A stretch of DNA of 5,807 nucleotides, taken from the NCBI GenBank assembly GCA_001412365.1, contig LKUE01000022.1:1-5807 (forward strand), read 5' to 3'. The notes below the pieces were generated by a model. It searched no databases. It was not told the DNA's origin and saw nothing but the letters and a program-made list of their open reading frames with translations. Numbering within the stretch: position 1 is the stretch's first letter; each line of letters starts with the position of its first letter. The stretch is from Desulfuromonas sp. SDB. GTDB lineage: Bacteria; SDB-A. The position numbers and the translations under genes were made by a program. Of this stretch, positions 1 through 5,807 are shown piece after piece.

Positions 1-41
1 AACAATGAGCAATTAACAATGAACAATTATCAATAATCAAT
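1..41. repeat. AT-rich intergenic repeat, imperfect 14-bp tandem units
   Basis: Positions 1-14 and 15-28 are two copies of a 14-bp unit (AACAATGARCAATT, one mismatch), followed by ATCAATAATCAAT. Positions 23-41 recur with one mismatch at 3002-3020. In both places a C-rich stretch follows, and a palindromic ACCTGCC element begins 34-37 bases further on. This suggests a composite intergenic repeat rather than random AT-rich DNA. It may extend left of the window. Confidence 0.55.
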
Positions 42-70
42 GCCCCCAACACCAAAGTGATTAGACACAA

Positions 71-99
71 ATTTACCTGCCGAAAGTGGCAGGTGAACA
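71..99 (+). repeat. Palindromic intergenic repeat, copy 1
   Basis: ACCTGCC (75-81) pairs with GGCAGGT (88-94) around a GAAAGT loop. Pairing extends outward to 72-97 with one T-G wobble, giving a roughly 10-bp stem. All 29 bases are identical to 938-966. The asymmetric loop sets the orientation as +. It lies upstream of higBA and has no T-run, so it is not a typical intrinsic terminator. Confidence 0.75.
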
Positions 100-181
100 C
101 TGAAAAACACAGACAGATAGGATAAAATACTTCCACCACTTTATAAAAATAGAGAAAGGATTATAATTTCAAAAGCTATTG

Positions 182-217
182 CTATTGCTTGACAATAGTA
201 TCGTCATGCGATAGGAT
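182..217 (+). promoter_or_regulatory. higBA promoter with two inverted-repeat operators
   Basis: A -35 box TTGACA (189-194) and a -10 box TAGGAT (212-217) are separated by 17 bp. Two inverted repeats overlap them: CTATTG-N5-CAATAG (182-198) spans the -35, and TATCG-N5-CGATA (199-213) fills the spacer and enters the -10. Their centres are about 16 bp apart. In higBA systems HigA, or HigBA, represses its own promoter by binding such palindromes; that these two are the HigA sites is inferred from position. The expected transcription start coincides with the higB GTG at 223. Confidence 0.7.
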
Positions 218-222
218 ATGGA

Positions 223-504
223 GTGATTAAATCTTTCAAATGCAAGGAAACTGAGAAGATTTGGTTTGGTAAAGTATCAAAAAAATTACCTCTGGAGATT
301 CAAAATATTGCCAGAAGGAAACTGCGTATGATGAATAATGCCCAAAATATTACCGAATTAAAAATACCTCCTAATAATAAACTTGAAGCATTGAAGGGTA
401 CAAGAAAAGGACAGTTTAGCATAAGAATTAATAGGCAGTGGAGGATTTGTTTTATGTGGGTAAATGGCAATTGTTTTGATACTGAAATAATTGATTATCA
501 TTAA
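223..504 (+). CDS. higB: HigB-family toxin (RelE superfamily mRNA interferase)
   Basis: The 93-residue product is a full-length HigB toxin (plasmid maintenance killer protein family). These are small ribosome-dependent endoribonucleases that cleave mRNA during translation. The family signature is intact in the C-terminal half: LEALKGTRKGQFSIRIN (about 54-70), then QWRICFMW (72-79) and the terminal EIIDYH. The start is GTG at 223, chosen because MIKSF is the usual family N-terminus. It lacks a convincing Shine-Dalgarno and lies 6 nt after the -10 box, so the mRNA may be leaderless. It is first in a two-gene operon, toxin before antitoxin as is usual for higBA, with higA 11 bp downstream. Nothing suggests inactivation. 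The family call is secure; the activity is inferred. Confidence 0.93.
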   Translation: MIKSFKCKETEKIWFGKVSKKLPLEIQNIARRKLRMMNNAQNITELKIPPNNKLEALKGTRKGQFSIRINRQWRICFMWVNGNCFDTEIIDYH

Positions 505-515
505 GGAGATAAAAT

Positions 516-806
516 ATGGATAAGTTAAAAAATATTCATCCGGGAGAAATTTTAGAAGAGGAATTCCTTAAACCGATGAAAATAACTGCTTATAGATTAG
601 CAAAAGAAACAAATTTAAATCAGACCCGAATCTCCCAGATTATTCATGGGAAGAGAAAGATCACTGCGGATACTGCTTTGCGGTTGGCAAAATTCTTTGG
701 TACATCTGCGCAATTTTGGTTAGGTCTTCAGGATGATTACGATCTGGAGGAAGAAAGAAATAAAATTAAAACAGAACTGGAAAAAATACAGACAATAACT
801 GCTTAG
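516..806 (+). CDS. higA: HigA-family XRE antitoxin
   Basis: The 96-residue HTH protein neutralises HigB and represses the operon. The XRE-type helix-turn-helix spans about residues 22-66, with the recognition-helix region around NQTRISQIIHGKRKIT. It is followed by the HigA hallmark FGTSAQFWLGLQDDYDL (about 61-77), and the tail is a charged helix. The strong Shine-Dalgarno AGGAG (504-508) overlaps the end of the higB stop codon and sits 7 nt before the ATG, so translation should be efficient and coupled to higB. Likely DNA targets are the palindromes at 182-213. The length is normal and the gene looks functional. No clear terminator follows. Confidence 0.94.
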   Translation: MDKLKNIHPGEILEEEFLKPMKITAYRLAKETNLNQTRISQIIHGKRKITADTALRLAKFFGTSAQFWLGLQDDYDLEEERNKIKTELEKIQTITA

Positions 807-829
807 ATATTTACCTTAGGATTTTTGAT

Positions 830-937
830 CCCTAATGAATAATCCCCCATCCCAATTTTTAACCACAATGAACACAGAGAATTAAGGTATGCTGCTTCGC
901 AGATATCACCCTACAACCCTTAAATAATTAACCACAG
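830..937. repeat. Degenerate intergenic repeat leader (C-rich and CACAG-type motifs)
   Basis: Downstream of higA lies TAATGAATAAT followed by the C-rich run TCCCCCATCCC (about 833-853), resembling the AT-rich then C-rich leaders at 1-50 and 3002-3036. Next come ACCACAATGAACACAGAG and a small CTGC-TTC-GCAG hairpin (about 891-901), then ACCACAG leading into the palindrome at 938. No ORF or RNA gene is recognisable. It looks like a decayed composite intergenic repeat. Confidence 0.4.
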
Positions 938-984
938 ATTTACCTGCCGAAAGTGGCAGGTGAACAGGATAAGAATAATAATTG
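938..984 (+). repeat. Palindromic intergenic repeat, copy 2, with tail
   Basis: Positions 938-966 match 71-99 exactly, with the stem ACCTGCC (942-948)/GGCAGGT (955-961) and loop GAAAGT. A tail, AGGATAAGAATAATAATTG, follows (966-984); its last 13 bases recur at 3761-3773. The element lies between the converging 3' ends of higA and the DUF2283 gene. A T-run after the stem is absent on both strands, so an intrinsic terminator role is not supported. Confidence 0.75.
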
Positions 985-1001
985 ATTATTGGATAAATGA
1001 A

Positions 1002-1208
1002 TCAAACAGGTTGACTAGACATTTCCTGGTAAGAGAATTCCCAAAGATTCGAATTTGCTTTAGCATGTTCTATTGTCATGCTGACAATATTTCCTTTGGA
1101 ATCAATATCTATATAGATATTTTCACTAATTTCCTTTGTTTCATATACTTCTCTGTCGGTAAACTCAATATGAGATGTATCGGTATCAGAAAAGTATTTA
1201 ACTTTCAT
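1002..1208 (-). CDS. DUF2283 protein, putative antitoxin
   Basis: The 68-residue protein matches the DUF2283 family: it begins MKVKYFSDTDTSHIEF and carries the core pattern YIDIDSKGNIVSMTIEHA (about 32-49), with TKEISENI just before it. DUF2283 proteins are small and lack an enzymatic motif. They are often encoded directly after DUF4258 genes, as here, and the pair is regarded as a predicted TA module with DUF2283 as the antitoxin; that role is inferred from context. The start at 1208 lies 2 bp beyond the stop of the upstream gene. Its very strong Shine-Dalgarno, AAGGAGGG, sits inside the last codons of that gene, so translation is probably coupled and abundant. The gene appears complete. Confidence 0.85.
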   Translation of the reverse strand: MKVKYFSDTDTSHIEFTDREVYETKEISENIYIDIDSKGNIVSMTIEHAKANSNLWEFSYQEMSSQPV

Positions 1209-1210
1209 TT

Positions 1211-1447
1211 TTATCCCTCCTTGAAGGATCTATCAAAAAATGCATTATGTACAGTTTCCCCATCTTCAAGTATTATAACTCTTAAATATTTAAAAGTCTC
1301 CTCTATTTTAGCCCATTTCCTAATACGTCCGTCTGATTGAATTTCAATTTTTTCTGGATTTTCCATAACATATATTATCCATTCTTCTTTTATTTTCAAA
1401 CGGTCAGATCTGTTTCTAGTATAATCAAAATATTTTGTTGTTTTCAT
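1211..1447 (-). CDS. DUF4258-type protein, putative toxin of the DUF4258-DUF2283 pair
   Basis: The 78-residue protein resembles the DUF4258 group found beside DUF2283 genes: it opens with KYFDYTRNRSDR, has EEWIIYVMENPEKIEIQSDG (21-40) and RKWAKIEE, and ends with YLRVIILEDGETVHNAFFDR (54-73). The family is thought to share the compact RelE-like fold, so this is the presumed toxin. No catalytic residues can be assigned by eye and the biochemical role is unproven. No Shine-Dalgarno is visible before the ATG at 1447. An AT-rich -10-like TAAAAT lies 9 nt upstream and a 10-bp inverted repeat touches the start codon, so initiation is probably weak and repressible. It is the first gene of a two-gene operon. 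Confidence 0.82.
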   Translation of the reverse strand: MKTTKYFDYTRNRSDRLKIKEEWIIYVMENPEKIEIQSDGRIRKWAKIEETFKYLRVIILEDGETVHNAFFDRSFKEG

Positions 1448-1480
1448 TTTGAAATATTTTATATTCTTTTATTTCAAAAT
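1446..1480 (-). promoter_or_regulatory. Inverted repeat over the DUF4258 start, probable operator
   Basis: ATTTTGAAAT (1446-1455) and ATTTCAAAAT (1471-1480) are perfect 10-bp inverted arms separated by 15 bp. The proximal arm overlaps the first two bases of the start codon. On the minus strand a -10-like TAAAAT (1461-1456) lies between the arms. A -35 box is not convincing: TTGACT at 1510-1505 is too far away. Bound protein would block the start region, so an autoregulatory operator is the likeliest reading. Confidence 0.5.
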
Positions 1481-1629
1481 AAGAGTAATTTTATATCTTA
1501 CTCAAGTCAAGATAAGTGGTAAATTATCATTCAAACCACCCAACAAAAAGATAAATAGTATTTCTTTTGGATGATTTATTCAATATAGTAGCAGGTTTTC
1601 CTTACTTCAGTGAGAGGAGAAGCTTTGAC

Positions 1630-1681
1630 TTTCCATATAAACTTCAAGATTGTATAATAAAAAGATTGATTATTAATCTTG
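1630..1681 (+). promoter_or_regulatory. hicB promoter and repeated AAGATT half-sites
   Basis: A consensus -10 TATAAT (1653-1658) has TTTCCA (1630-1635) 17 bp upstream as a plausible -35. The sequence CAAGATT (1645-1651) is repeated as AAGATT (1662-1667) and inverted as AATCTTG (1675-1681). The inner pair is AAGATT-N7-AATCTT; the outer pair is CAAGATT-N23-AATCTTG. These flank the -10 and start region, as expected for a TA operator. Which protein binds is unknown: this HicB has no visible separate HTH domain. Confidence 0.5.
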
Positions 1682-1706
1682 AGTAAAATAAATATTTGGG
1701 CAAAAT

Positions 1707-1919
1707 ATGAATAGAGAATATACTGCAGTAATAAAAGAAATTGATGATTGGTGGGTTGGCTGGATTGAAGAAGTTCCCGGAGTGAATTGTCAGGAAAAGA
1801 CCTATGAAGAATTAAAAGAAACTCTGGAAATTACTCTAAAAGAAGCCTTGGAATTTAACCGACAGGATGCCCTTACCTCTGCTGTCAGTGGATATAAAGA
1901 AGAAAAAATTGCACTATGA
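1707..1919 (+). CDS. hicB: HicB-family antitoxin
   Basis: The 70-residue protein is a short HicB antitoxin with the partial RNase H-like fold that binds and blocks HicA. The hallmark stretch is intact: an N-terminal strand MNREYTAVIKEIDDWWVGWIE, the EVPGVNCQ turn (about 22-29), and the helix TYEELKETLEITLKEALEFN (33-52). It has no added HTH domain. The ATG at 1707 has only a weak GG-containing ribosome site (TTGGG, 1696-1700). The stop overlaps the hicA start as ATGA, so the two were translationally coupled. The partner hicA carries a premature stop, leaving this as an apparently intact antitoxin without a functional cognate toxin. Confidence 0.9.
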   Translation: MNREYTAVIKEIDDWWVGWIEEVPGVNCQEKTYEELKETLEITLKEALEFNRQDALTSAVSGYKEEKIAL

Positions 1920-2104
1920 AGCGGAAAAAGCTTCTACAGTATCTTCGTAATCAAGAATGTTACCTGTTAAGATAAGGTAGTAAACATTCTTGGTGGTATA
2001 ATCCCATTCAAAATAAAATATCATCTATTCCAAGACATTCAGAAAAAAAAGATATTTTAGCTAATAAGATCTGTAAAGACCTCGATCTTGAACCAGTTAA
2101 ATAA
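1916..2104 (+). pseudogene. hicA: hicA toxin inactivated by one in-frame stop codon
   Basis: Reading from the ATG at 1916, which overlaps the hicB stop, one unbroken frame gives 62 codons of a typical short HicA except that codon 20 (1973-1975) is TAA. Before it the frame reads MKRKKLLQYLRNQECYLLR, the normal HicA N-terminus. After it come GSKHSWWYNP, IPRH and KDILANKICKDLDLEP, the rest of the family pattern. HicA proteins normally have Glu between the Arg and GSKHS, so a single GAA-to-TAA change explains the break. The catalytic His (codon 24) lies beyond the stop, and no ATG, GTG or TTG codon allows a restart. The product would be a 19-residue peptide without RNase activity. A sequencing error or stop readthrough cannot be excluded from sequence alone. 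Confidence 0.88.
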
Positions 2105-2126
2105 AAATAACTTTATCCTGACTTAA

Positions 2127-2327
2127 TTAGGAATAACTTAGAAAGTTTTTGAAGTATTTTTTATGCTCTTCAGGGGAAAAACCAATACCAAAACAATGAT
2201 GTATCTGCCATCTATTATTGACATTTTTTAACAATATACTTTCAACATGTTCATCAATTTTCTTCTGTTTATCCCCATCATAAATAGGAATCCATAACAG
2301 AACTTCAGATTCATCAGAAGAAAACAT
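2127..2327 (-). CDS. Unrecognised short ORF, possibly a gene fragment
   Basis: This 66-codon frame reads MFSSDESEVLLWIPIYDG, then a Lys/Asp-rich helix and QIHHCFGIGFSPEEHKKYF. It resembles genuine protein in composition (mixed hydrophobic and charged residues, Trp, paired His), but I recognise no family. The ATG at 2327 has no Shine-Dalgarno. The frame stays open for only seven more codons upstream before a TAA, and the palindromic repeat copy at 2357-2383 begins 30 bp beyond the ATG. It may be the C-terminal remnant of a longer gene cut off at the repeat, or a small orphan gene. It converges on the hicA pseudogene with a 22-bp gap. No partner gene is adjacent. Confidence 0.4.
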   Translation of the reverse strand: MFSSDESEVLLWIPIYDGDKQKKIDEHVESILLKNVNNRWQIHHCFGIGFSPEEHKKYFKNFLSYS

Positions 2328-2356
2328 ACCGGTACTAGCATTAATTAGTTAAAATT

Positions 2357-2391
2357 GAATTCACCCGCCAAGTGTCTGGTTAACAAGATAC
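2357..2391 (+). repeat. Palindromic intergenic repeat, degenerate copy 3
   Basis: GAATTCACCCGCCAAGTG and the bases after it (2357-2383) match 3051-3077 at 23 of 27 positions. The right arm has decayed (GTCTGGT in place of GGCAGGT), so the stem is largely lost. AACAAGATA follows, matching the AACAGGATA tail of copy 2. The AAGT loop gives + orientation. It lies between the unrecognised minus-strand ORF and the parD-relE operon. Confidence 0.6.
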
Positions 2392-2417
2392 TAAAATACA
2401 AAATAATTAAATATATG

Positions 2418-2446
2418 TTGCATAATACAATTTATTGTTGTATTAT
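2418..2446 (+). promoter_or_regulatory. Promoter and operator of the ParD-like/RelE operon
   Basis: TTGCAT (2418-2423) and TATTAT (2441-2446) form a -35/-10 pair with 17-bp spacing. A perfect 9-bp inverted repeat, ATAATACAA (2422-2430) and TTGTATTAT (2438-2446), is laid exactly over both boxes with a 7-bp spacer. This is the usual arrangement for repression by a dimeric antitoxin. AAGGAG (2458-2463) provides a strong ribosome site for the first gene. Confidence 0.65.
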
Positions 2447-2470
2447 TGAAACAAATAAAGGAGAAAAATA

Positions 2471-2689
2471 ATGGGAAATGCAGTAAGAATATCCGAGGAA
2501 TTACTGAATGAAGCAAAGCTGGTCAGCAAAATTGAAAAAAGATCCATTACCGGACAGATTGAATACTGGGCTAAAATCGGTAAAATTGCTGAAGAAAATC
2601 CTGATCTAACCTACAGCTTAATAAAAGAGATATTATTGGGGATAAGAGAATTGGATCAAGGATTAATGAGTGAATACCAGTTTGGCTAG
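2471..2689 (+). CDS. ParD-like antitoxin
   Basis: The 72-residue protein belongs to the ParD-like antitoxin group. Its N-terminus MGNAVRISEELLNEAKLVSKIEKRS forms the expected strand-helix unit, followed by ITGQIEYWAKIGKIAEENPDL (26-46), the diagnostic segment of this family (in relatives roughly R-S-x-x-x-Q-I-E-x-W-A-x-I-G). The C-terminal part would wrap the toxin. It should neutralise the downstream RelE/ParE-type toxin and repress the operon through the palindrome over its promoter. A strong Shine-Dalgarno (AAGGAG, 2458-2463) lies 7 nt before the ATG. The toxin gene begins 3 bp after the stop. The length is normal and the gene appears intact. Confidence 0.85.
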   Translation: MGNAVRISEELLNEAKLVSKIEKRSITGQIEYWAKIGKIAEENPDLTYSLIKEILLGIRELDQGLMSEYQFG

Positions 2690-2692
2690 AAT

Positions 2693-2971
2693 ATGAAAGT
2701 TTTTCAATCCAGGAAGTTTTCTCATAAAGTAAAAAAATTCAATAAATCTGAAAAATCAGAACTAGATAAAATCATAAAAAGAATTCTAAAAAATCACCAA
2801 CTAGGAGTGGAGAAAAAGGGTGATTTAAAAGGTATTTTTATTTATAAATTTAAGATTAAATCGGTAGAATACTTGCTTGCTTACCGGATCAAACAAGAGA
2901 ATCTTGAATTGATCATGATTGGAGTTCATGAGAATTACTATCGAGAATTAAAATCGTATATTAAAAACTAA
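2693..2971 (+). CDS. RelE/ParE-superfamily toxin
   Basis: The 92-residue basic protein has the RelE/ParE layout: an N-terminal helical hairpin (about 6-34, Lys-rich), a KKGDLKGIFIYKF strand pair (41-53), a YLLAYRI strand (60-66), and the C-terminal strand and helix IMIGVHENYYRELK (74-87). The G-x-HENYYR ending is typical of the subgroup paired with ParD-like antitoxins. Members either cleave mRNA at the ribosome or poison gyrase; which applies cannot be told from sequence. The start has no Shine-Dalgarno of its own and lies 3 bp after the antitoxin stop, so expression probably depends on re-initiation, keeping toxin below antitoxin. It appears complete. Confidence 0.85.
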   Translation: MKVFQSRKFSHKVKKFNKSEKSELDKIIKRILKNHQLGVEKKGDLKGIFIYKFKIKSVEYLLAYRIKQENLELIMIGVHENYYRELKSYIKN

Positions 2972-3001
2972 AACCATGACTTGAATTGACCCTATCATTT
3001 T

Positions 3002-3077
3002 ACAATTATCAATGATCAATAACCCACCCCACCCCAGAAAGGTTTACCAAGAATTCACCTGCCAAGTGGCAGGTAAA
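3002..3077 (+). repeat. Composite intergenic repeat: AT-rich leader, C-rich stretch and palindrome copy 4
   Basis: Positions 3002-3020 match 23-41 with one mismatch. A C-rich stretch (about 3022-3036) follows, then the perfect stem ACCTGCC (3057-3063)/GGCAGGT (3068-3074) with loop AAGT. The order and spacing of the parts match 23-97. The element sits between the converging ends of the relE-type gene and the hicB-XRE gene. Neither strand shows a T-run after the stem, so it is not a canonical terminator. Confidence 0.7.
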
Positions 3078-3086
3078 TAATTTCTC

Positions 3087-3515
3087 TTAGCAGAAAATTA
3101 AGTTGTAATTAAAATCAGTGAATACTTCTTTTATCTTGAATAAGGTTTTTAGGGTTGGATTAGAAGTTTTCGCCTTTTCCAGTTTCTGATAACTATAGAT
3201 ATTTTTCATACCCAATTTACTGGCTGCTTGTCTCTGGGTAATTTTATTTTCTATTCTGTACATCCTAAGAAGCATGGAGAAAGCGATATTTGGTCTTACT
3301 GATACTGCATAAACATTGTTTTTGTTTATTTTCTTTTCAGGTAGAGGAAATATGACTTTGGAATTATCGGGTTCTTCTAAATACAGATTTAAAACTTCTT
3401 CCATATTCTTTTTTAATTCACTTAAATTATCACCTTCGGTAAAACAACCGGGCATTTCAATACATTCAGCCCAATAACCATCTTTTTCTCGGTGAATTTT
3501 AAAATGATATTTCAT
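3087..3515 (-). CDS. hicB: HicB-family antitoxin with C-terminal XRE helix-turn-helix
   Basis: The 142-residue two-domain protein has a HicB fold at residues 1-60: KIHREKDGYWAECIEMPGCFTEGDNLSELKKNMEEVLNLYLEE covers the strand, the EMPGCFTEGD turn and the helix. After a linker, an XRE-type HTH spans about 76-135, with ITQRQAASKLGMKNIYSYQKLEK as its core. The first domain should bind a HicA toxin; the second should bind operator DNA. The ATG at 3515 has an AGAGG ribosome site 8 nt upstream. Only the C-terminal piece of hicA lies upstream, with a 2-bp gap, so the antitoxin and repressor has outlived its toxin. It may persist as an anti-addiction protein, a free regulator or a decaying remnant. 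The reading frame itself is intact. Confidence 0.9.
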   Translation of the reverse strand: MKYHFKIHREKDGYWAECIEMPGCFTEGDNLSELKKNMEEVLNLYLEEPDNSKVIFPLPEKKINKNNVYAVSVRPNIAFSMLLRMYRIENKITQRQAASKLGMKNIYSYQKLEKAKTSNPTLKTLFKIKEVFTDFNYNLIFC

Positions 3516-3517
3516 TT

Positions 3518-3625
3518 TTAATCCTCTTTTAATACTTTTCTCAAATGATACTCTAAACCCTTGCTCAACTCTTTGTGTAGAGGGATTGAAATTCGTTTAT
3601 TTCCTTTTCCCATAATCAATGGCAT
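3518..3625 (-). pseudogene. hicA: C-terminal remnant of a hicA toxin gene
   Basis: Directly upstream of hicB-XRE, in the usual hicAB order, an open stretch of 35 codons (ATG at 3625, stop ending at 3518) contains GKGNKRISIPLHKELSKGL followed by a basic helix ending KVLKED. This matches the C-terminal half of HicA, where the (V/I)PxH strand leads into a K-G-x-L-x-x-x-L-x-K helix. The N-terminal half, with the GSHH-type catalytic histidine, is absent. A TAA lies two codons upstream of the ATG, and the DNA beyond that is repeat-like and gives no HicA sequence in any frame I read. The gene was therefore truncated by deletion or by a repeat-associated event, not by a point mutation. An internal ATG at 3613 also exists; neither start would yield an active toxin. 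Confidence 0.75.
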
Positions 3626-3677
3626 TAATTATTCTATTTTCTAATACCAATTATAATTAGTATTTTCAATAAATAAT

Positions 3678-3773
3678 TTAACCTCAGATAAACACGGGTG
3701 AACACAGATAGAAATTTAATGATTACTGTTTGAAAACAGTCTTTTTCCTTGCTAAAAAGAAGAATAATAATTG
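3678..3773 (+). repeat. Degenerate CACAGAT-type intergenic repeat with shared tail
   Basis: TTAACCTCAGATAAACACGGGTGAACACAGATAGAAAT (two halves, about 3678-3715) is related to the ACCACAG and GGTGAACA flanks of the other copies but lacks the ACCTGCC palindrome. After a small hairpin (3725-3740), AGAATAATAATTG (3761-3773) is identical to the tail of copy 2 (972-984). Together with 3626-3677 it makes up the spacer between the hicA remnant and the DUF4160 gene. No ORF is recognisable here. Confidence 0.45.
3725..3746 (+). terminator. Short hairpin with T-run, terminator-like
   Basis: ACTGTT (3725-3730), loop TGAA and AACAGT (3735-3740) form a 6-bp stem followed by CTTTTT (3741-3746). The shape is that of a weak intrinsic terminator reading rightward. 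No plus-strand gene ends nearby, the last being at 2971, so it would insulate the DUF4160 operon from read-through. Alternatively the palindrome is an operator, as it lies about 30 bp upstream of the predicted -35. Confidence 0.35.
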
Positions 3774-3799
3774 CTTACAAAATTGAATTATCTTAGAAT
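3771..3799 (+). promoter_or_regulatory. Promoter of the DUF4160-DUF2442 operon
   Basis: TTGCTT (3771-3776) and TAGAAT (3794-3799) are spaced by 17 bp; the -10 matches 5 of 6 consensus bases and the -35 is weak. Transcription would start about 7 nt after the -10, at the GTG start codon at 3806, which suggests a leaderless mRNA as at higB. Confidence 0.5.
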
Positions 3800-3805
3800 A
3801 TATCT

Positions 3806-4045
3806 GTGAGTACTACTGTTTTTAAAATTGGTAGTTATAGGTTCTTTTTCTTCTCAAGAGAAGAAGTGAGAAAACATATTCATGTTTATCATCCGGATGG
3901 AGAAGCAAAGTTCTGGTTGGAACCAGATATTGAATTAGCAAGAAATTATAAGTTAACTGAAAAACAATTAAATGAGATAAAGAAAATTATTGAGGAAAAC
4001 CTAGATGAAATCAAAAATTCATGGAAAGAACATTTCGGAAATTGA
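3806..4045 (+). CDS. DUF4160 protein, member of a putative TA pair
   Basis: The 79-residue protein is a clear DUF4160 member: TVFKIGSYRFFFFSREE at the N-terminus, the KHIHVYHPDGEAKFWLEPDIELA core (23-45) with the conserved HxHV and AKFWL(E/D)P motifs, and a C-terminal helix LNEIKKIIEENLDEIKNSWKEHF. The biochemical function is unknown. These genes recur next to DUF2442 genes, as here, and such pairs have been proposed as TA-like modules; which partner is toxic is not established. The GTG at 3806 places the usual family N-terminus correctly and has no Shine-Dalgarno, so the message may be leaderless. The 3' end overlaps the next gene by 41 bp. Confidence 0.85.
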   Translation: MSTTVFKIGSYRFFFFSREEVRKHIHVYHPDGEAKFWLEPDIELARNYKLTEKQLNEIKKIIEENLDEIKNSWKEHFGN

Positions 4046-4265
4046 AGTTTTAAACATAGATAAACACGGATTTTGGCTATTTTTAAAAGGTAGAGAATAT
4101 TTTTTACCTTATTCTGATTTCCCCTGGTTTTTAGAAGCAAGAATTAAAGATATTAATAAAGTTGAATTACTCCATGAATCTCATATCTATTGGCCTAATT
4201 TAGATATTGATCTGGATGTTAAAATTCTTGAAAATCTAGAAAATTATCCTTTAACTTATAAATAA
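4005..4265 (+). CDS. DUF2442 protein, partner of DUF4160
   Basis: The 86-residue protein carries the DUF2442 pattern: EVLNIDKHGFWLFLKGREYFLPYSDFPWF (14-42), ARIKDINKVELLHESHIYWPNLDIDLDV (45-72) and the ending NYPLTYK. Family members are small mixed alpha/beta proteins, and many occur as the second gene after DUF4160. It starts inside the DUF4160 gene at 4005 in another frame. A GAGGA ribosome site (3992-3996) lies 8 nt upstream, much better than that of the first gene, so this product is probably made in excess. That would suit an antitoxin-like role, but this is inference. The gene is complete. It is followed by a degenerate palindromic repeat rather than a recognisable terminator. Confidence 0.87.
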   Translation: MKSKIHGKNISEIEVLNIDKHGFWLFLKGREYFLPYSDFPWFLEARIKDINKVELLHESHIYWPNLDIDLDVKILENLENYPLTYK

Positions 4266-4285
4266 ACTTTCATTTTCTTCCCTTA

Positions 4286-4322
4286 ATTTACCTGGTGCAA
4301 ATAGCAGGTGAATAGGATAAGA
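4286..4322 (+). repeat. Palindromic intergenic repeat, degenerate copy 5, with tail
   Basis: ATTTACCTG (4286-4294) and GCAGGTGAA (4304-4312) keep the outer arms of the palindrome around a longer, altered centre. TAGGATAAGAAA follows, matching the tail of copy 2. Orientation is + by the tail. It separates the DUF2442 gene from vapBC. Confidence 0.6.
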
Positions 4323-4355
4323 AATACTGATATGAAACAACTAATATAATTTTCT

Positions 4356-4413
4356 TTGAACTATCTTAAAAAAGTGTTATCATAATGTATAAAGTGATAA
4401 CATTTAATCGGAG
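4356..4413 (+). promoter_or_regulatory. vapBC operator and probable promoter
   Basis: TGTTATCA (4375-4382) and TGATAACA (4395-4402) are perfect 8-bp inverted arms with 12 bp between them, so the arms lie on about the same face of the helix. This is a typical operator for a VapB ribbon-helix-helix dimer or VapBC complex. CATAAT (4381-4386) or TATAAA (4388-4393) could be the -10, with TTGAAC (4356-4361) as a -35; spacing is not ideal for either. GGAG (4410-4413) is the vapB ribosome site, 7 nt from the ATG. Confidence 0.6.
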
Positions 4414-4420
4414 TTAATAT

Positions 4421-4669
4421 ATGATTAGAACTCAAATACAATTAACTGAAAAGCAAGCAGAAGCTTTGAAAAAATTGTCTTCTGAAAAAGATGTATCCAT
4501 TTCTGAATTAATCAGAAGAGGTGTGGATTTGTTATTAAAAACGGACTTAATTTCCAATAATGAATTGAAAAAGAAAAATGCGTTGAAATTATCTGGTTTA
4601 CATAAAACCGGTTGTAAAAATCTTTCTACTCATCATGATTATTACATTTATGAGGATAATAACAAATGA
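4421..4669 (+). CDS. vapB: VapB-type ribbon-helix-helix antitoxin
   Basis: The 82-residue antitoxin has a CopG/Arc-type ribbon-helix-helix at residues 1-41: the IRTQIQLTEKQ strand, helix AEALKKLSSEK, then VSISELIRRGVDLLL. The dimer binds DNA with the N-terminal ribbon, presumably at the palindrome 4375-4402. The C-terminal tail, with SGLHKTG and the aromatic DYYIYED, should occupy the active-site groove of the toxin. Translation starts at 4421 behind a GGAG ribosome site. The stop overlaps the vapC start as ATGA, so the two genes are translationally coupled. It looks intact. The VapB name is given because the partner is a PIN-domain protein; RHH antitoxins also pair with other toxins. Confidence 0.9.
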   Translation: MIRTQIQLTEKQAEALKKLSSEKDVSISELIRRGVDLLLKTDLISNNELKKKNALKLSGLHKTGCKNLSTHHDYYIYEDNNK

Positions 4670-5070
4670 GTGTATTTGTGGATACATCAGGAATTCTCGC
4701 TTTGATTAATGCTGACGATATTAATCACAAACAGGCAGATGAAATCTGGAAAAATCTGATTGAAAAAGAGGAGGAATTGATTTCCACTAACTATGTTCTC
4801 TTAGAAACTATAGCAGTAATCCAAAACAGAATTGGATTAACAGCAGTTAATTCTTTATATAAATATTTGATCCCCATACTGAAAATTATGTGGGTAGATG
4901 TTTCTGTTCATAATCGAGCAATGACAAATTTACTAATCATGAATAAGAAAAAGATAAGTTTAGTTGATTGTGTCAGCTTTGAAATCATGAATTTATCCGG
5001 CATTACTGAAGTATTCTGCTTTGACAAACATTTTCAGGAACAAGGATATACTTTCATCGAGATGAATTGA
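4666..5070 (+). CDS. vapC: PIN-domain VapC toxin ribonuclease
   Basis: The 134-residue PIN-domain protein has all four acidic residues expected at the metal site: Asp6 in VFVDTSGILAL, Glu47 in STNYVLLETIAV, Asp101 in ISLVDCVSFEIM and Asp120 in VFCFDKHFQEQGY. VapC toxins are Mg2+/Mn2+-dependent RNases that cut initiator tRNA, other tRNAs or rRNA to stop translation; the target cannot be predicted here. The length fits the family. The ATG overlaps the vapB stop by 4 nt and there is no independent ribosome site, which favours antitoxin over toxin. The module is complete and appears functional. The gene converges on hipA with a 255-bp gap containing decayed repeats. Confidence 0.93.
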   Translation: MSVFVDTSGILALINADDINHKQADEIWKNLIEKEEELISTNYVLLETIAVIQNRIGLTAVNSLYKYLIPILKIMWVDVSVHNRAMTNLLIMNKKKISLVDCVSFEIMNLSGITEVFCFDKHFQEQGYTFIEMN

Positions 5071-5112
5071 TAATTAAAAGAGAAAATAATATACCTTCCC
5101 CTTTCTGATGAC

Positions 5113-5237
5113 GAATCACAGGTAAACACTATTCACAGATTACACCCCCCACCACCGATGGGATTGGAACACAGATGGACAGGATTTCAATTGATCAATC
5201 TACCGAGCATCAGGGAAACAAGATAAGAATTATGATG
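5113..5237 (+). repeat. Decayed intergenic repeats between vapC and hipA
   Basis: Several family motifs occur in degenerate form: CACAGGTAAACACT, CACAGATTAC followed by a C-rich run (about 5145-5155), AACACAGATGGACAGGAT (about 5169-5186), an ATTGATCAAT segment, and AAACAAGATAAGAATTATGAT (about 5217-5237), which resembles the tails of copies 2 and 3. No palindrome of the ACCTGCC type is intact and no ORF is recognisable. Confidence 0.4.
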
Positions 5238-5307
5238 ATAAAAGCTTTTTTAAAATCTTCTATTAGATTTATATATAAACTCAGATAATAGCAATAATCT
5301 AACTTTT

Positions 5308-5333
5308 AAAAATATGACTTGAGTATTAAGTCA
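5308..5333 (-). terminator. Possible intrinsic terminator of hipA
   Basis: On the minus strand TGACTT (5333-5328), a 7-nt loop and AAGTCA (5320-5315) form a 6-bp stem, followed by TA and five T (5312-5308). The hipA stop codon (5328-5326) falls within it. The stem is AT-rich and weak, so termination would be partial. Confidence 0.4.
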
Positions 5334-5807
5334 ATCTGGAATACTTTTCATTAACTATTTCTTTAAATCTTTCTTTTTCCTGCCGGTCAAGATAGGAATT
5401 ATCAATTATCTTTTGAATTTCAGCTTTCTTATCAATAAATAAGTTAATAGCTTTTTCGGGGATTTTCAGATATTTAGCAAATTTAATAAAATCCGGCTTT
5501 TGGATATTATTCTTTTTCCCATTTAAAGTAAGAGCAGTATCCTCTTCTTCCGGGATCAATATTTTTGAAGATACAATATCATAACCGGGTGAAAGTCTTA
5601 TTTCATTGTGGTTATTATATATTATGGAAAAATTTTTCTGATGAGCATCTCCATTCCCTAATATGAAATTTAATACGATTCTCTCAAAAAATAACTGGAC
5701 ATCTAAACCGGGTACTTCAGATATTGACCATAATTTTTTCCCGATTTCTTCATATGATCCACTGTATTTATCTTTCTTATTTAAAATCTGAAAAAAAGTT
5801 TCCGTAT
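5326..5807 (-). CDS. hipA: HipA-family serine/threonine kinase toxin, C-terminal part
   Basis: The frame is open from the right edge to the TAA at 5326 and gives 159 residues of the C-terminal kinase lobe; the rest lies outside the window. Key elements are KYSGSYEEIGKKL (13-25), the catalytic loop FILGNGDAHQKNFS (47-60), with Asp53 and Asn58 in the positions of E. coli HipA Asp309 and its following Asn, and the metal-binding segment LSPGYDIVSSK (71-81), with Asp76 equivalent to Asp332. TALTLNGKKNN and a helical tail follow. HipA kinases inactivate glutamyl-tRNA synthetase, or TrpS for HipT, by phosphorylation. Catalytic residues are intact in the visible part. An ATG at 5559 is internal. A HipB-type antitoxin gene would be expected upstream, beyond the edge. 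Confidence 0.92.
   Translation of the reverse strand, partial: TETFFQILNKKDKYSGSYEEIGKKLWSISEVPGLDVQLFFERIVLNFILGNGDAHQKNFSIIYNNHNEIRLSPGYDIVSSKILIPEEEDTALTLNGKKNNIQKPDFIKFAKYLKIPEKAINLFIDKKAEIQKIIDNSYLDRQEKERFKEIVNEKYSRLT

Follow-up and report, generated by a model that had tools for sequence, protein, structure and literature searches.

The window considered here, 5,807 nucleotides of the uncultured bacterium Desulfuromonas sp. SDB, spans the whole of contig C22 in a draft genome of 3.14 Mb (433 contigs, 98.7% complete). It is a real and partly decayed cluster of toxin-antitoxin (TA) loci, a kind of gene cluster already known, of which it is a dense representative. Profile searches identified eight TA-type loci, five on the forward and three on the reverse strand, and the adjacent two-gene loci of differing families are, judged by families and sequence only, those of a type II TA cluster. 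We consider it probable that these type II modules were acquired horizontally, one by one, and collected in a permissive, repeat-rich and non-essential stretch of the genome. The window contains no sign of an integron array or of a new capture device.

Five of the loci are complete pairs in which all genes are intact. The first, higBA, lies on the forward strand and consists of a HigB-like toxin gene of the RelE/ParE superfamily with a GTG start (223-504; PF05015, 73.7 bits over residues 5-93) and a higA antitoxin gene with a helix-turn-helix (HTH) domain (516-806; TIGR02607, 112 bits against a cut-off of 47.7). On the reverse strand a DUF4258 gene for a predicted BECR-fold toxin (1211-1447) stands upstream of a DUF2283 gene (1002-1208; PF10049, 60 bits), its predicted antitoxin partner by virtue of the pairing. 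The remaining complete pairs are all on the forward strand: a parDE-like locus (ParD-like antitoxin, 2471-2689, PF11903, 64 bits; ParE-like toxin, 2693-2971, PF15781, 92 bits), a DUF4160-DUF2442 locus of DhiTA type (DhiT-type toxin, 3806-4045, PF13711, 62 bits; overlapping DhiA-type antitoxin, 4005-4265, PF10387, 53 bits) and vapBC (VapB-like ribbon-helix-helix antitoxin, 4421-4669, PF12651, 30 bits; VapC PIN toxin, 4666-5070, PF01850, 38 bits). The other three are two broken hic loci and, on the reverse strand, the C-terminal part of a hipA-like kinase gene (5326-5807; PF07804, 81 bits, profile positions 81-204 of 213) that is cut by the right end of the contig. The first-pass annotation, which had described eight TA loci in under 6 kb, therefore had the families at their claimed places and on both strands, but only five of the loci are complete, both hicA genes being broken and hipA cut.

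This density of TA genes is exceptional for the host genome. Not one of 393 stretches of 5.8 kb, drawn from a sample of the same genome (81 contigs picked by contig number, 0.5 Mb), was without a gene of at least 160 amino acids, and open frames of at least 60 amino acids cover 94% of that sample as against 73% of the window, remnants included. Both the sole PIN match and the sole HipA match of the genome fall in the window, together with one of its three HigB matches and one of its three HicA matches.

Decay is evident at the two hic loci. On the forward strand an intact hicB-like (UPF0150-like) antitoxin gene (1707-1919; PF21748, 19.5 bits) is followed by a hicA pseudogene (1916-2105) whose translation matches PF07927 with one stop, an in-frame TAA at codon 20 (1973-1975); the rest of the frame is conserved past this codon and an intact relative exists in genome G027. 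On the reverse strand a gene for a HicB-like antitoxin with an XRE/HTH domain (3087-3515; PF15919 and HTH_3, and a HicB-like PHROG at 36 bits) lacks a full toxin gene, and upstream of it only about 30 C-terminal codons of a second hicA are left, recognised from the sequence and its translation (3516-3625, reverse strand, the upstream boundary being approximate). Neither hic locus is therefore able to make a full HicA. The earlier statement that the stretch holds no other recognisable function overlooked a reverse-strand fragment (2127-2348) from the C-terminal part of a non-TA protein, which aligns, with 35% identity over 67 amino acids, with the C-terminal half of a 143-amino-acid protein of genome G224 that is NTF2/SnoaL-like by inspection. 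As the homology reaches to within about 10 bases of a repeat at 2349-2391, this is a gene truncated at the repeat. With two antitoxins lacking working toxins and one gene fragment, the locus is thus partly decayed.

For several of the modules, close relatives exist in genomes that are only very distantly related, so that these modules probably arrived singly by horizontal transfer. The hicBA region is 71% identical in nucleotide sequence to a locus in G027 and the DUF4160-DUF2442 pair 69% identical to one in G004, both genomes being related to the host only at the level of the domain, and higBA is 67% identical to a locus in G001, a genome of the same family. The neighbours of higBA in G001 and of DUF4160-DUF2442 in G004 are ordinary genes, in the second case unrelated ones. 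Support for serial capture also comes from the composition of the window, in which both strands hold loci of unrelated families, eight in all, two of the toxins are dead and a non-TA gene is truncated, with no attC site at the junctions. Acquisition of single modules by horizontal transfer would be the simplest account of the distant relatives taken together with the decay. New modules would be tolerated because insertion into a non-essential region harms nothing, and intact ones, going by their families, would resist deletion through addiction. In type II systems generally, loss of the module releases the toxin. Toxins would be lost first, the antitoxins outliving them once hicA is broken, and the locus would come to be a mix of live addiction modules, as predicted from their families, and decaying remnants. 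The dispersed repeats would be a sign that the region is non-coding in character, and breakpoints may now and then arise at them.

These repeats, which the first-pass annotation had placed between the modules, were indeed seen at most junctions. The element is a 43-nucleotide palindrome, ACCTGCC and GGCAGGT around a short loop, and a sequence model of it (R1) detected five copies in the window, every one of them in forward-strand orientation: at 61-105 (48.9 bits), at 928-972 (55.6 bits), at 2349-2391 (47.5 bits), where it abuts the gene fragment, at 3043-3085 (50.6 bits), where it abuts the HicB-XRE stop codon, and at 4276-4320 (41.9 bits), a degenerate copy. Genome-wide the repeat occupies about 22 distinct places, five of them in the window, where 0.04 copies would be expected in 5.8 kb; the family is present on at least 14 contigs besides that of the window, and the total may be an underestimate because repeats of this sort interrupt assemblies. 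A search of 12 relatives, three from the same family, found no copy, and the palindrome is both lineage-specific and dispersed. The copies inspected elsewhere adjoin ordinary genes, and an association of the repeat with TA loci was rejected on that ground; a search with R1 found no copy on C224, C407, C69 or C79, the other contigs with TA loci. Mean identity among the window copies is 65%, compared with 62% for random sets of copies, and 25% of the random sets match that value. Recent duplication of repeats inside the window is unsupported, its copies being about as alike as random sets, and they are too diverged to suggest recent exchange. Near-identical copies flanking the modules were not found. 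The only closer pair is that formed by the first two copies, which bracket higBA as a 53-nucleotide direct repeat with 84-85% identity and share a loop, GAAAGT, that is absent elsewhere in the genome. This pair could reflect a single insertion or a local duplication, and is one case only.

In being a short, dispersed, intergenic palindrome, often near gene ends, the element resembles repeats of the repetitive extragenic palindrome (REP) and bacterial interspersed mosaic element (BIME) type, but differs from them in that no link to a RAYT was found. Mobilisation of the REP kind by a RAYT was rejected, since the contig of the single Y1 transposase of the genome (C25) carries no copy of the repeat. 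At 4276-4320 and 5101-5239 of the window, and at loci L043, L045 and L056, the palindrome was also observed within longer composite intergenic repeats (CACAGAT, CTGCTTCGCAGAT and AACAATTATCAAT motifs). Such composite repeats are seen again at the ends of many contigs and are probably a cause of the fragmented assembly.

It had been claimed that the window is not an integron array, and for the window this holds. No attC-like structure was found at any of its junctions, and the three loose attC-like matches that it contains, against a background of 1.1 per 5.8 kb, all lie inside genes. These matches fold at about -0.1 kcal/mol per nucleotide and include no consensus R boxes, which are also missing from the palindromic repeats. 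The loci do not share the orientation expected of cassettes, with five on one strand and three on the other. The first-pass annotation had named an integron integrase and attC sites nearby as grounds for refuting its reading; neither is present in the window, but both were found in the same genome on a separate contig, C253, which carries an IntI-type integron integrase (64-1002; 396 bits against a cut-off of 265) and beside it at least two well-folding attC-like sites (about -0.5 kcal/mol per nucleotide) that served as a positive control for the scan of the window. Also on C253 (locus L114, 61-8691), cassette-like TIR, AAA/OLD-like and DUF4062-like genes were recognised by inspection, all of them defence-type genes. 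Taking the window to be part of the genome's chromosomal integron, a stretch of its cassette array lying far from the integrase, would fit with the integrase, attC-like sites and cassette-like genes of C253, but since the matches in the window are few, intragenic, weakly folding and near background and have no consensus R boxes, this explanation is largely refuted and we regard it as very improbable. The window is like the sedentary chromosomal integrons of Vibrio type in its dense TA content and in having a host with an integron elsewhere; it differs from those arrays in its mixed orientation and in having neither attC sites nor an integrase on the contig.

Some observations weigh against a serial capture of single modules. 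No genome of the same genus was among those compared, and the gain or loss of a whole module was not observed. Five repeats in 5.8 kb, where 0.04 would be expected, go beyond what a permissive region alone would lead one to expect. Moreover, as the contig is just 5.8 kb long, the cluster could belong to a larger mobile element that brought the modules with it. The TA loci would then be passengers of, for example, an integrative and conjugative element, a prophage remnant or a plasmid, which they entered with and stabilise. Mobile elements commonly carry TA clusters, the window runs to both ends of its contig, and its G+C content is lower than that of the genome sample (30.1% vs 33.5%). However, profile searches, including those against PHROGs, found that the window lacks genes for mobility, replication or phage functions, and the presence of the repeat beside ordinary genes where inspected on the other contigs links the region to intergenic DNA native to this genome, so that we consider such an origin unlikely, though worth bearing in mind. 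A phage origin in particular was rejected, the PHROGs matches being to TA, regulator or unknown families only, and no relative of DUF2283, of HicB or of the 2127-2348 fragment was found on viral contigs. Searches of the window against Rfam and for tRNA genes gave no match, and an RNA- or tRNA-anchored island was rejected for this reason; a PADLOC search for defence systems gave no strong match except to HipA-like models. A chimeric or foreign contig, arising from assembly or binning, might be suspected in a draft of 433 contigs, and the left end of the contig sits in a repeat, its first bases matching repeats at other contig ends. Against this, the repeat that is absent from the 12 relatives not only lies between modules in the window but turns up on many other contigs of the bin, so that the modules and the host genome belong together. 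An artefact of this kind is hardly credible.

The proposal of the first-pass annotation, that modules accumulate by recombination between dispersed repeats, finds little support. Under this explanation homologous or illegitimate recombination between the palindromes would add modules as repeat-flanked units. The repeat is dispersed and is strongly enriched in the window (five of about 22 places), the copies share one orientation at most junctions, higBA lies inside a direct pair with a loop unique in the genome, and the non-TA fragment stops at a repeat; but the copies elsewhere flank ordinary genes, the other TA-bearing contigs are without the repeat, and the window copies are no more alike than random sets, a quarter of which equal them. 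We find accumulation by this route improbable. The same-orientation repeats at the junctions, the same-loop pair around higBA and the fragment ending at a repeat also suggest a more specific idea, in which the repeat-lined region is a capture platform and the lineage-specific palindrome an attachment site for the insertion and excision of TA modules, but to this we give little credence. Horizontal acquisition of single modules into a permissive region is the reading that we prefer.

Clusters of TA loci are found elsewhere in this genome and beyond it. A second cluster on C224 (L041, 3217-6341) comprises higBA, a pair that is AbiEi/AbiEii-like by inspection, phd-relE and DUF6364, and further clusters of TA loci in the host genome were found on C407 and C69 and at the end of C79, all of them, like that on C224, smaller than the window. 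All of these are near contig ends, although this says little because more than half of the sampled genome is equally near to ends. The window is denser than the other TA clusters of the genome, and it differs from chromosomal TA clusters also in having no larger gene on its contig and repeats at most junctions. What it has in common with chromosomal TA clusters is the packing of unrelated type II modules together with remnants, as seen at L196, at L165 of Desulfonauticus, at L189 of Kapabacteria and on C224 and C79. On the Ignavibacteria contig of L196 (1766-6253) about five TA modules, including a second divergent DUF2283, were observed in 4.5 kb, a density comparable to that of the window. 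The small genes around DUF4258 loci include those of other TA families, and some of these loci are dense clusters, which indicates that clustering of the type seen in the window is ordinary.

The DUF4258-DUF2283 pair has a distribution of its own. A scan of named genomes for DUF4258 gave 71 loci (L146-L216), labelled as Desulfobacterota, Cloacimonadota, Planctomycetes, Ignavibacteria, Cyanobacteria, an archaeal draft genome and others. DUF2283 adjoins DUF4258 on the same strand in 70 of them, while another family of the types present in the window is nearby in only five, and the pair therefore travels as a unit, independently of the other modules. Relatives of the pair in many phyla are about 50-79% identical in amino acid sequence; a DUF2283 protein up to 89% identical to that of the window was seen elsewhere. 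Assignment of the window protein to DUF4258 is weak by Pfam, at 17 bits for PF14076 where the cut-off is 25, but is backed by the pairing with DUF2283 and by the predicted fold. An AlphaFold 2 (AF2) model of the protein (predicted local distance difference test score, pLDDT, 95.6) has BrnT as its closest structural match (Z 6.7, root-mean-square deviation 2.8 over 69 residues), with further matches to the CdiA-CT of E. coli NC101 (Z 6.3) and to YafQ/RelE (Z about 5). The best matches are all BECR-fold or RNase-type toxins, and the likeness to BrnT, RelE and YafQ lies in the predicted fold, yet values of Z 5-6.7 are below 8, under which a structure comparison is no proof of a shared fold, and the Pfam match is itself below its cut-off. 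The predicted fold of DUF2283 had no clear match in the PDB, the second-ranked entry being an EF-Tu/CdiA/CdiI chain (Z 4.7). DUF4258 has been placed in the RelE/ParE superfamily with its target unknown, and DUF2283 is not mentioned there (PMC11980606). The window pair differs from the DUF4258 systems of that paper in having DUF2283 as the partner and the DUF4258 gene first, the order in the paper being antitoxin-toxin. No mention of DUF2283 or COG5428 was found in the literature searched, which lay mostly outside subscription journals.

The pair at 3806-4265 is of a better known kind. DUF4160-DUF2442 is known as DhiTA (PMC8198452), and a DUF4160-DUF2442 pair of Thermus stabilises plasmids, introduction of its first gene having failed without the second (PMC12724237). 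Both domains of the window pair score above their cut-offs, with the toxin gene first and overlapping frames; it shares with DhiTA and with the Thermus PEM module the two domains and the toxin-antitoxin order, a likeness drawn from sequence families alone.

Were the repeats to guide insertion, the locus would show bacteria collecting TA modules in a new way, although the present data fall short of that. The window offers a compact, well-documented case of modules that would have arrived singly and decayed where they lay, the toxins going before the antitoxins. The most useful by-product is the DUF4258-DUF2283 pair which, given its recurrence across many phyla, is a good candidate for a widespread mobile TA system.

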